Shown here one piece after another: positions 3,701-60,375 of a DNA stretch of 64,000 nt; positions within the stretch are counted from its first letter, which is position 1; every line of letters begins with the position of its first letter. Below the pieces are notes generated by a model. The model made no database searches and was not told the DNA's origin. It saw only the letters and a list, made by a program, of their open reading frames with translations. A program made the position numbers and the translations under genes. The stretch is taken from assembly GCF_000294775.2 (NCBI RefSeq), contig NZ_CP015506.1, positions 5,059,501 to 5,123,500 of the forward strand, read 5' to 3'. The DNA comes from Cytobacillus oceanisediminis 2691 (GTDB taxonomy: Bacteria > Bacillota > Bacilli > Bacillales > Cytobacillaceae).

Positions 3701-3734
3701 CTATATCGGTCACTTTTTCCATATATCGGTCACT
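3701..3734. repeat. Two-unit 20-bp direct repeat
   Basis: TATATCGGTCACT occurs at 3702 and again at 3722, exactly 20 bp apart. The spacing matches the longer arrays at 11667-11779 and 59944-60036 although the unit sequence differs. The surrounding 3640-3910 has no supported gene. Confidence 0.6.
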
Positions 3735-11155: not shown

Positions 11156-11216
11156 AACATTTCCTTATTCCATTTCCGGATTGCAAAGGGAATCCATCAA
11201 ATGTATGGATAACCTC

Positions 11217-11573
11217 TCACTCCTTAATCCAAGTCCAGGCTTCCTCAAGCTGATGGCCTTCAAAGTATTCAACTTTAATGCCAGGCAGATAGTTTGTAAG
11301 CTTGGAAACAGTTCCTATCCAGTCTTTGTCACTGACAACAGCGAATTTATTAAATTGTTTCCATCTTTTTATATCAAATTCTATTCCTTCCGCTGCTCCT
11401 TGGAAGGTTGTTCCGTCTACATCCGTCATGATGGCTAGAATATTGAATTTCTGGTCACCTTTAAAATTTTCTCTCACGTATTGATCCAGTTTTTCAGCAT
11501 CTTCCTTGGTCGCATTCCCATTGAAAGCGAGGGCAATTGTAGAGGGAGAGCGGGATTCTATGAATTGCAGCAT
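11217..11573 (-). CDS. SpoIIAA-like (STAS/SEC14-type) protein
   Basis: A 118-residue cytosolic protein with the alpha/beta pattern of the SpoIIAA-like family (PF11964 type): a first strand TIALAFNGNATKEDAEKL, ILAIMTDVDGTTFQGAAEGI, then KFAVVSDKDW and a terminal EEAWTWIKE helix. Family members are small, often stress-related, and lack a known enzymatic role. The gene is monocistronic with a GGAGG 8 bases before the ATG. Nothing nearby points to a partner kinase or sigma factor. Confidence 0.72.
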   Translation of the reverse strand: MLQFIESRSPSTIALAFNGNATKEDAEKLDQYVRENFKGDQKFNILAIMTDVDGTTFQGAAEGIEFDIKRWKQFNKFAVVSDKDWIGTVSKLTNYLPGIKVEYFEGHQLEEAWTWIKE

Positions 11574-11666: not shown

Positions 11667-11779
11667 CTATTTGCAGGTTTTTGCTCTCTATTTGCAAAAC
11701 TGTTATTCTATTTGCAGAATTGAATACTTTATTTGCAAGATTTTCCTTCTATTTGCAGATTGGAAAACTCAATTTGTAG
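11667..11779. repeat. Six-unit tandem array of 20-21 bp (CTATTTGCAg)
   Basis: Units beginning CTATTTGCAG or close variants start at 11667, 11688, 11708, 11729, 11749 and 11770, with spacings 21, 20, 21, 20 and 21 bp. Only the 10-base core is conserved; the spacer half of each unit varies. The mean period of 20.6 bp is two DNA helical turns. It lies in the gap between the SpoIIAA-like gene and the desaturase terminator, with no coding potential I can support. Confidence 0.8.
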
Positions 11780-32137: not shown

Positions 32138-32247
32138 ATACTCCCCTCGCTTTTCTGTTTTTTGTATTTTCTTAATTTTGAGTGTAGACGATGCTTTCCG
32201 CTGCGGCGGCCAGGTTGGGACTTGCTGTTCCCGATTTCTGCTTCTAT

Positions 32248-32520
32248 TGTCCGAAGTGGCGCTAAGTTCGGACTCACTCTCCCTGTTTTCCGCTTCTTCT
32301 GTCCGAAGTAGCGCTATATTCGGACTCACTCTCCCTGTTTTCCGCTTCTTCTGTCCGAAGTGGCGCTAAGTTCGGACTCACTCTCCCTGTTTTCTGCTTC
32401 TTCTGTCCGAAGTAGCGCTAAGTTCGGACTCACTCTCCCTGTTTTCCGCTTCTTCTGTCCGACTGAGCGCCTGGTTCAGACTGCTTCTCCCGGTTTTCAG
32501 CTTTTCCTGTCCGAATGAGA
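32248..32520. repeat. Tandem array of 52-bp hairpin units (TGTCCGAA...TTCGGACTCA)
   Basis: Units start at 32248, 32300, 32352, 32404, 32456 and 32508 (partial), every one exactly 52 bp apart. Each good unit has GTCCGAA-N11-TTCGGAC, a 7-bp stem, followed by a pyrimidine-rich CTCTCCCTGTTTTCCGCTTCT segment (split here as two parts: CTCTCCCTG and TTTTCCGCTTCT). Units 1-4 are nearly identical and unit 5 is diverged. It fills the gap between the abgB stop (32523) and the abgT ribosome site, so it would be transcribed inside the operon leader. Related single or diverged units occur at 55695 and 60214-60375. Confidence 0.9.
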
Positions 32521-58364: not shown

Positions 58365-59904
58365 ATGCAGAAGGGATTGATTTATCTGAAAAATAAGCTA
58401 ATTGCGTTATCACTGGCATCTGCTTTAAGCTTTTCACTTTTTCCGGAAAGAAGTTTTGCCGAGCAAACTGCTGCGGAAAACCAGGCCATAATACCTGGTG
58501 CGCATACAGTAACGGAACAATACTTTGATGGTGTGAACAACAACTGGCTGACCACCAAGAATCCCCTCCAATATCAGCAGGCGACCCTTTACGGAAACAT
58601 CGGTCTTGCTCCTTATCTCTGGGGAAATGCCGAGGAAGGAACCGGATGGCATCAAATGTATAAGCCTTCTTCTGTAACGGGAACACAGGTAAATGGTATT
58701 TTTGAAGATGCCCAGTTTGTCATAAGGGTTCCGGAATGGCCGGCTGGTTGTTTCGGGAATCCCGGCTACAAGAAATGAAACATCAACCGACCTGCTTTTC
58801 AGCGACTATGTCCTGGAAAAAGGATATGCTTTTGCAGCGATTGATAAAGGCACCCAGGGTGACGCTGATTCAGCTGATCCATTTGCAAAAGTAAAGAATG
58901 CCTTAGCCGCTGAGGATGATAGCGTAGCAGAATGGCACCAGCGGTTCCGGCAGGTTACGAAAGCCGCACAGCGATACTTAGTCAGCCATTATTCCGATGG
59001 TCTGATCGATCCGGCAGATTCTACTGACCCGGCGAGCGATTTAGTATCGGCAGTGCATAAAATTCCTACATATGCGATGGGAGTTTCCAATGGCGGATAC
59101 GTCGTGCGCTATGCCCTTGAAAATGACCATCCAGAGAAGACTGGCGAACCGCGTCTTTTTGATGGAGGAGTTGATTGGGAAGGCGTGTTATGGACGGAAG
59201 AAAAGCCAAATTTAATCAGTTCTCTGACCACCGTAGTGAATCATGCGGAGGAAGCTTTGTTTGGAAGCGGCAAAATAAAGCAGAAAGCGATTAAAGAGCT
59301 ATACAAAGCTGGATTGCCCAAAGGATCGGAAAAACTATGGGCCTATCATGATCAGGTATACTGGTTTGTCTCGCTGAATATCTATCGGGACCATTTCGAT
59401 CCGGAAGCCCCAGGCCGTACCCATTGGAGCAATTACCTGAACTTTGTTAATGGCGTGAGAGACCGATCCTTTGATTCTGTCTTTGAAGATTATAAATATG
59501 TGACCCGTCCAAAAGAAGTGAAAGAAAATATTAAGGAAGTGGCCAATACTGGAGATATAGATGTGCCGCTCATCTCTTTCACTGGTTCCCTTGATTCGCT
59601 GATATTCCCGGATATTCATGCAAAGGGATATCAAAAGCTGGTCAAGAAAGCCGGAAAGCAGGATCTGCACCGAATGTATACTATTGAGAATGGGAACCAT
59701 GTTGACAGCCTTGTCTGGAACAGCTCCGCCGATCCGGATAAAGAACTTCAGCCTTTGTTGCCTTACGCTCACCAGTCATTCGACTTGCTTATCGACTGGG
59801 TGGAAAACGGGAAAGCTGCTCCTGAGAGCAAAACGGTCAATGCTCCAGAGAACCCGGTTAAGGTTATTGATTTAAAAACGGGGCAGGAACGGGATCCCCG
59901 TTAG
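58365..59904 (+). pseudogene. Secreted alpha/beta hydrolase (tannase/feruloyl-esterase-like), frameshifted
   Basis: One reading frame runs from ATG 58365 with a signal peptide ([21 protein letters not shown]) to a stop at 58778. The matching continuation lies in the +1 frame from about 58747 ([19 protein letters not shown]) and is open without a stop to 59904. The shift is near 58743-58747 (RVPEWPAG / VVSGIP; a Lys-Leu-type linker seems lost). The downstream part has the nucleophile [13 protein letters not shown], Asp in [11 protein letters not shown] and His in ENGNHVDSL. The intact protein would be about 510 residues and exported. A real mutation and a sequencing error are both possible. 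There is no clear ribosome site at 58365. Confidence 0.8.
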
Positions 59905-59943
59905 GTTGAGGCAGGAGTGTTGGTCTGCAGTCTTAAAAATGGC

Positions 59944-60036
59944 TAACCGCACGAAAAAATTTCTATCCGCACGTAAATTGTGGTTATAAGCACAGAAAAA
60001 ATTTTATCCGCAAGTAAGTTGAGTCTATCCGCACAT
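59944..60036. repeat. Five-unit tandem array of 20-21 bp (TATCCGCACgtaa)
   Basis: CTAACCGCACG, CTATCCGCACG, TTATAAGCACAG, TTATCCGCAAG and CTATCCGCACA begin at about 59944, 59963, 59984, 60004 and 60025, with spacings of 19-21 bp. Geometry equals that of the 11667 array, but the core sequence is unrelated. It lies downstream of the broken hydrolase; 59905-60382 holds no gene. Confidence 0.75.
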
Positions 60037-60213
60037 AAACTGATTTTAATGATACATGAAGGCATCTCAGTGCGGTTTTTATGGAAGAAATATGCCCCAA
60101 TCGTTTTGGATTGGGGCTTTTAAGCTTCGTATTAAATGTTTTTAGTAAATGAACGGTTCATTTTCGATAAATCCGCCTTGTGACGAACTTCAATAAGGAA
60201 ATTTCTGCTCTGC

Positions 60214-60375
60214 TGGCCCGAAGCTGACAAAAGTACGGACTCCAACTGGATTATTCCTACTGTCAGACTCTGACACGGTTCGGACTCTAACTGACTAATT
60301 TCTGCTTAGCATGTCCGAAGGCGACACGGGTTCGGACTCCGATTAAATTGCCGCTCAGTCTGTCCGAAGCCCCTC
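60214..60375. repeat. Diverged TGTCCGAA...TTCGGACTC hairpin array
   Basis: Units start at 60214 (TGGCCCGAAG), 60261 (TGTCAGACTC), 60312 (TGTCCGAAGG) and 60361 (TGTCCGAAGC), spaced 47, 51 and 49 bp. Each keeps a CGGACTC block about 25 bp in, as in the exact 52-bp array at 32248, but the pyrimidine tract is replaced by AACTGACTAATTTCTGCT-like sequence. It ends at the stop of the broken MFS gene. Confidence 0.75.

Follow-up and report, generated by a model that had tools for sequence, protein, structure and literature searches.

The array under study lies near the right end of the window, by which we mean the whole 64,000-nucleotide stretch of the Cytobacillus oceanisediminis chromosome that was analyzed (Table 1). 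It consists of five units of the TATCCGCA family with steps of 20, 21, 20, and 21 bp. The initial annotation had described a periodic array at 59944-60036; its presence was confirmed, and the last core extends to 60039. Tandem Repeats Finder (TRF) gave a score of 121 at period 41, whereas 100 dinucleotide shuffles of the window yielded a top score of 62, with no shuffle at 70 or above, indicating that the array is real and far above chance. The core named in that annotation, TATCCGCACGTAA, occurs in exact form only three times in the genome, and the family is represented instead by the consensus TATCCGCACATAAA. The ORF on the left showed weak, below-cut-off Pfam matches to 3HB-oligomer hydrolase and prolyl oligopeptidase, and convergent MFS transporter ORFs, in pieces, are found on the right. 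A terminator-like hairpin behind the array was recognized by eye, also in several orthologues. The same intergenic region holds a degenerate array of the 52-bp class, part of which matched other loci on sequence comparison.

Table 1. Positions of repeats and neighboring features in the window.
Feature	Position	Strand	Remarks
Two-unit TATATCGGTCACT pair	3702..3734	+	Copies 3702-3714 and 3722-3734, step exactly 20
TATTTGCA-family array	11668..11763	+	5 core copies, steps 21, 20, 21, 20; TRF, pattern search
52-bp array with GTCCGAAGTGGCGCTAAGTTCGGAC dyad	32235..32515		5.4 copies; TRF
Flanking ORF	59053..59904	+	Stop codon 39 bp before the focal array
Focal array, TATCCGCA(cATAAA) family	59944..60039	+	Five units, starts 59944, 59964, 59985, 60005, 60026; read from sequence, shuffle control
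Intrinsic-terminator-like hairpin	60094..60121	+	GCCCCAAT...ATTGGGGC then TTTT; by eye
Degenerate CCGAA...TTCGGAC array	60180..60370		52-bp class; same intergenic region as the focal array

Several identities for the focal array were examined and rejected. The array lies between ORFs, and a coding repeat is excluded because alternating steps of 20 and 21 bp break any reading frame. An Rfam search of positions 59900-60200 gave three matches up to E 1, none on the array and all far below the gathering score, and a known Rfam RNA was therefore rejected. Transposition with target duplication was also rejected, since inspection of the orthologues by eye revealed no clean empty site at the locus.

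Pairs of TATCCGCA in the C. oceanisediminis genome were spaced at 20 or 21 bp in nine of nine cases when 16-26 bp were allowed, and the reversed control gave none. We then considered 84 arrays of at least three units, orthologues included, allowing steps of 15-27 and 36-46 bp. Of 304 single steps, 295 were 20 bp (152) or 21 bp (143), and the remainder were 19 (5), 17, 18, 22, and 25 bp (one each). Another 25 links spanned two steps, 38-42 bp. The initial annotation had put the recurrence at 19-21 bp, of which 20 and 21 bp stand and 19 bp is rare. Five units was the commonest size (35/84). In a strict set of 74 arrays, 150 of 221 neighboring pairs of steps alternated as 20-21 or 21-20, and the others were 20-20 (43), 21-21 (19), or different (9). 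Some arrays of other Bacillaceae (L033, L044, L053) had strict 20-bp steps.

The TATCCGCA pairs occurred in 47 of 193 genomes of the taxonomic family and in 4 of 25 genera, with zero for the controls among the matches listed; some single matches look chance-like by sequence, such as those in G058 and G007 (the latter the sole one of its genus). A two-unit search that was made stricter and took one genome per species yielded 43 stretches, all of them from records named Cytobacillus, Neobacillus, Bacillus, Sporosarcina globispora, or Pseudomonas sp. ISL-84. The organism names Pseudomonas sp. ISL-84 (L015, L046) and Sporosarcina globispora DSM 4 (L035, L041, L045) fit poorly with a Cytobacillus/Neobacillus-type repeat and may be wrong or outdated. 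In line with the Cytobacillus placement of the genome under study, 3 kb of its second replicon showed 99.9-100% identity to three plasmids, one named C. oceanisediminis and two C. firmus.

Each unit comprises a conserved core of about 14 bp and a remainder of 6-7 bp. The core logo is a near-dyad, TAT-nnGCnn-ATA, and about half of the units carry the longer form TTTAT...ATAAA; the central G and C of the logo are 93-97% conserved and the next A 79-82%. In L094 the core TATGTGCACATA is a perfect palindrome, found as TTTATGTGCACATAAA in L109. Drifting cores (TATCCGAAAGTAAA, TATACGGCAATAAA, and TATCTGAAAATAAA) were observed beside or in place of TATCCGCA units in L153 and L148 (near 1010223 and 429588 of the same genome), as if the cores shift gradually within one frame. 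We also searched the genome for TTATNNGCACATAAA with one mismatch; of 39 matches (control 8), 28 were in or beside arrays and 11 outside, a number close to that of the control pattern, and no single-copy operator stood out. Inspection of nine TTATNNGCACATAAA contexts revealed no clear regulator site, and a trans-acting single operator or an antisense partner was rejected.

The initial annotation had pointed to three loci in the window with the same geometry and different cores. All three belong to dispersed families. With 20-23 bp allowed, 32 of 32 TATTTGCA pairs in the genome were spaced at 20 or 21 bp. The 13-base TATATCGGTCACT pair, which recurs at exactly 20 bp as had been reported, is a member of the TATCGGTCA family, whose pairs were spaced at exactly 20 bp in six of seven cases and at 24 bp in one (16-24 bp allowed). 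Two arrays of a further family, GGCCGGTA, had periods of 21/42 bp. In a wider set of 30 TATTTGCA arrays, 301 of 318 steps were 20-21 bp. Relatives hold up to 149 pairs per genome; TATTTGCA pairs occurred in 44 of 193 genomes and 7 of 25 genera, many of the 44 genomes holding a single pair, and the control matched 7 times in all. The cores had also been called unrelated. The families do differ, but on its opposite strand the TATTTGCA core gives TGCAAATAGA, which matches CGCACATAAA in seven of nine letters from GCA on. Because GCA-N-ATA-R-A is common to the TATCCGCA and TATTTGCA families, on opposite strands, the two are probably related, as judged from their cores.

Other arrays of this geometry were observed in passing. 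A fourth 21-bp family with core GGCCGGTAAAT was found at L186:2053-2231 and L059:14420-14517, in opposite orientations relative to the neighboring genes, and one reversed TATCGGTCA-like unit adjoins the L059 array. Four of 84 TATCCGCA arrays and five of 30 TATTTGCA arrays lay inside an open frame. An example is the array at L222:1501-3036 (G042:C8, minus strand of the locus), in which 77 TATTTGCA units form nearly identical 40-bp dimers in a long open frame that looks spurious. The genes beside five long arrays appeared ordinary by eye.

A census of sampled intergenic DNA was carried out without choosing a core. On the chromosome, TRF (score at least 50, period at least 12) gave 15 distinct arrays in an 800-kb sample with 133 kb of intergenic DNA: eight at 20-21 or 41-42 bp, four at 51-52 bp, and three at other periods (18, 22, and 30 bp). 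The 52-bp array L075:15224-15607 was missed because an open frame masks it. Neither TATCCGCA nor TATTTGCA pairs were found in the species G030, where two of four arrays had a period of 52 bp, none had 20-21 bp, and the others had 48 and 133 bp. In G035, G037, and G053 (TRF score at least 55), seven of eight arrays fell in the two classes and one had a period of 26 bp; one of the seven is the orthologue of the focal array, in a stretch that had been picked by even spacing. Pooled, 21 of 27 arrays had periods of 20-21 (41-42) or 51-52 bp, and six had others (18, 22, 26, 30, 48, and 133 bp).

A similar picture emerged when the 69 kb of intergenic DNA in the first 400 kb were scanned for repeats in three copies. 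At 8 of 12 matches, period 20 was found at five places, versus 0.0 in five shuffles, and periods 51 and 52 at four places each, again versus 0.0; one or two places were found at 19, 21, 26-28, 39-40, 50, 53, and 60-61 bp. At 9 of 12 matches, period 20 retained one place (0.0 in shuffles) and 51-52 retained three to four. Thus, the arrays exceed what shuffled DNA gives, and the suggestion of the initial annotation that periodicity is the constant of the family holds in part: the 20-21 bp period is not the sole constant, and a 52-bp class coexists with it.

The 51-52 bp class, about five helical turns, comprises several different sequences, most of which contain an internal inverted repeat by eye. 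For the member in the window with the GTCCGAAGTGGCGCTAAGTTCGGAC dyad, comparison by eye shows agreement with family 79_52_5, published for oceanisediminis (PMC8161180, Table 1). In addition to L075, further arrays were observed at L060:5366-5653, L066:10793-11155 and 11214-11395, L184:7567-7752, L192:17614-17939, L207:15789-16014, and L246:13005-13541. Two of five tested arrays of this class had strongly low RNA folding energy on both strands.

Class arrays in the C. oceanisediminis genome lay between convergent genes in 11 of 27 examined cases, versus 77 of 451 intergenic gaps (P 0.003; minimum ORF length of 100 aa for array placement and 80 aa for the gaps). This excess stemmed from the TATCCGCA family (8/13; other families 3/14). 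The set of 27 is partial, as some TATTTGCA arrays, the TATCGGTCA pair with step 24, and the drifted L142 and L148 were left out. It was obtained after four of 31 rows had been removed by hand. These were the reverse readings of arrays located in the window, L004, and L106, and an unverified GGCCGGTA hit in L186 that overlaps an ORF; had they been retained, 13 of 31 would be convergent (P 0.001).

Variation within the units was compared among orthologous arrays. At the focal locus, variable columns numbered 9/70 in cores, 8/26 in spacers, and 30/143 in flanks (P 0.068 and 0.19, not significant alone) in a set found through the flanking gene and made up of the C. oceanisediminis sequence, G060, G045, and G046, the identical G048 being left out. 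A second locus with six sequences gave 7/70, 9/26, and 68/224. For the two loci pooled, the values were 16/140, 17/52, and 98/367 (P 0.001 and 0.0002, columns being treated as independent); outside the focal locus, the arrays had been collected by their resemblance to the core, and core conservation is inflated as a result. Gap cells in the six focal orthologues keeping most units amounted to 5/1050 in cores, 0/390 in spacers, and 461/4683 in flanks. For variable columns, further ortholog groups agreed in direction, except the two-sequence group g5 (core 3/42, spacer 0/13, and flank 38/299). These results indicate that cores vary less than spacers in orthologous arrays, with two loci pooled.

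The focal array is one copy of a repeat element that is dispersed over the chromosome and most often has five near-dyad units alternating at 20 and 21 bp. The most likely mechanism, to which we assign a probability of roughly 45%, is that the units are sites, in phase with the helix, to which a DNA protein binds cooperatively. We infer this from the whole-turn step, the near-dyad core, the lower variability of cores than of spacers, and the lack of an average excess of sense-strand RNA structure described below. Each unit would be a candidate binding site for a dimeric DNA-binding protein, and a step of 20.5 bp, two helical turns, would place neighboring proteins on one face of the DNA and permit cooperative binding. 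The product may be a short filament of about 100 bp beside gene ends, often between convergent genes, which could organize DNA, insulate, or act as a roadblock. The core sequence could drift and the protein might differ from family to family, while the step would have to remain a whole number of helical turns; units would be gained and lost by recombination between copies. Against this mechanism, the dyad is imperfect, six other genomes that keep the flanking gene have no array at the focal locus, no single-copy operator stood out, and no partner protein for the arrays was found in this analysis.

Comparison of strains for gain or loss of units, which the initial annotation had proposed, revealed turnover at the focal locus. 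The flanking gene was found in C. oceanisediminis and 17 other genomes of the genus. As read by eye, five units were present in G048, G060, G045, G046, and G035 and about five in G036; G037 and G052 retain three or four units in decayed form, and G033, G053, and G062 have two. The two-unit form looks like the product of recombination between unit 1 and unit 4. By the same reading, no units were present in G034, G055, G054, G050, G044, and G056, and the array is therefore dispensable in these six genomes, which keep the flanking gene. Such losses and absences, unit numbers from 3 (the search minimum) to 77, and the near-identical dimers at L222, apparently a recent expansion, would be in keeping with neutral or selfish satellite DNA, a functionless product of slippage and recombination whose constant step reflects common descent from a few ancestral elements together with a mutational mechanism. 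However, several families with different cores keep one step, other periods were a minority in the census, the cores are less variable than the spacers, and 20-21 nt repeats occur in several unrelated Bacillus groups and in other phyla (PMC8161180). We regard satellite DNA as a rather unlikely explanation.

The orientation of the arrays relative to the nearest gene end bears on whether they work as RNA. Of 74 classified TATCCGCA arrays, orthologues included, 54 were codirectional with the left gene, and 20 of 24 TATTTGCA arrays were opposed to the right gene, so that both families would read GCA-N-ATA-R-A in the transcript. In the C. oceanisediminis genome alone, 8 of 10 TATCCGCA arrays were codirectional (P 0.11, not significant; L106 is counted by its left gene at 9 bp, and automatic assignment gives 7/10) and six of six TATTTGCA arrays were opposed (P 0.03). 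These preferences, together with the transcription of 52-nt repeats in B. coagulans (PMC8161180, PMC8625621), speak for arrays that are transcribed at mRNA 3' ends or as small RNAs and bind protein or other RNAs. However, 11 of 13 TATCCGCA arrays of this genome are on the leading strand (hand count; P 0.02), and the TATCCGCA orientation preference is thus confounded with replication direction. Among 48 TATCCGCA arrays that follow a codirectional gene at a distance of up to 160 bp, a simple custom finder predicted a terminator between the stop codon and the array in 12, after the array in 16, and none in 20; the first group argues against a role at the mRNA end. Sense-strand folding of 12 elements showed no average excess of structure (mean z +0.30, from -2.40 to +1.97), which favors DNA over a structured RNA; a structured sense RNA is unsupported on average, L004 (z -2.40) being an exception. 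On the antisense strand, folding energy was mildly low (mean z -1.65). It is also not evident what a helical-turn step would mean for an RNA. Taken together, these findings suggest that action as RNA is unlikely.

A gyrase-type wrap spans about 100-140 bp, and the arrays might serve as phased bending or wrapping elements in which the rhythm of flexible TA/AT-rich and GC-rich steps matters rather than sequence recognition; TA steps that recur about every 10 bp both inside a unit and across units, AT-rich spacers, and positions near gene ends, often convergent, where supercoils are expected, are consistent with this, but the conservation of the central GC and the next A goes beyond bending alone and makes it improbable.

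Cooperative binding of a protein to helically phased sites remains the preferred mechanism. A wider form of it, speculative and as a whole doubtful, would make the families operators for related proteins. These would polymerize on the chromosome beside gene ends, with one site every two turns, two sites to a 41-bp module, and usually five sites in all. This would be a chromosome-organizing or insulating system of the Bacillaceae in which the site sequence drifts and the spacing is held, and the 52-bp arrays, with five turns and in most cases their own dyad, might form a second tier.

Known repeat systems were compared with the arrays. REP/BIME elements with RAYT (Y1) transposases are dispersed intergenic repeats often near gene ends. 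The arrays are likewise dispersed, intergenic, and near gene ends, but they are tandem direct repeats at helical steps. Matches to the Y1 transposase domain PF01797 were found in 23 of 36 genomes of the genus, one of them in C. oceanisediminis, and none in the array-bearing G048, G035, G045, G046, G060, G062, and G052; a REP/RAYT identity was rejected because several array-bearing genomes gave no match to this transposase. Sixteen PF01797 matches, several of them located at the ends of contigs, were found in G050, which has no TATCCGCA pairs. Plasmid iterons and ParR/parC-type centromeres are tandem sites about two helical turns apart to which one protein binds cooperatively. The arrays share the tandem two-turn sites but are present as many dispersed chromosomal copies, and an iteron or partition locus was rejected, as the ORFs flanking the focal array are the weak hydrolase-like match and the MFS transporter pieces, with no rep or par gene. 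CRISPR arrays also have short repeats in rows, with identical repeats and unique long spacers. Here, in contrast, the whole unit is 20-21 bp, a core with its 6-7 bp remainder, without unique long spacers, and a CRISPR identity was rejected.

The closest likeness is to the Bacillus tandem repeats described by Subirana and Messeguer (2021; PMC8161180), whose size is fixed at 20-21 or 52 nt while their sequence varies; the idea of periodicity as the constant was already published there. According to that report, 66% of the tandem repeats in 176 Bacillus genomes were 20-21 or 51-53 nt, with several families per genome; 40-41 nt forms were mentioned, and 20-21 nt was noted to equal two helical turns. 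Function was left unexplained for these fixed-length, free-sequence repeats, with a polymerizing nucleoid protein or a small RNA offered as two ideas (PMC8161180). The focal array belongs to this class because of its geometry, its dispersal, and the coexistence of several families. The published and present repeats are alike in a length of 20-21 nt with a few of 40-41, in several families of different sequence per genome, in a short signal kept in most repeats, in being mostly non-coding, and in having a 52-nt class beside them in some species (PMC8161180). Correspondingly, length was constant in the TATCCGCA (295/304) and TATTTGCA (301/318) steps, the TATCCGCA, TATTTGCA, TATCGGTCA, and GGCCGGTA families share their length in one genome, the focal array is not protein-coding, and the window holds the 52-nt counterpart of 79_52_5, as compared by eye. 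The published class requires at least four repeats (PMC8161180), and the focal array has five, whereas the two-unit pair at 3702-3734 would fall outside it. The main text of PMC8161180 names oceanisediminis once, for two families of 52-54 nt and none of 20-21 nt, and does not contain the words orientation, terminat, or palindrom. Beyond the literature found, our analysis adds the usual five-unit form with mostly alternating steps of 20 and 21 bp, the near-dyad cores, the convergent-end and orientation preference, core conservation for two loci pooled, and the loss of units; with the array-negative sisters, these features provide defined DNA baits and natural presence/absence loci, which let the protein-versus-RNA question be tested.
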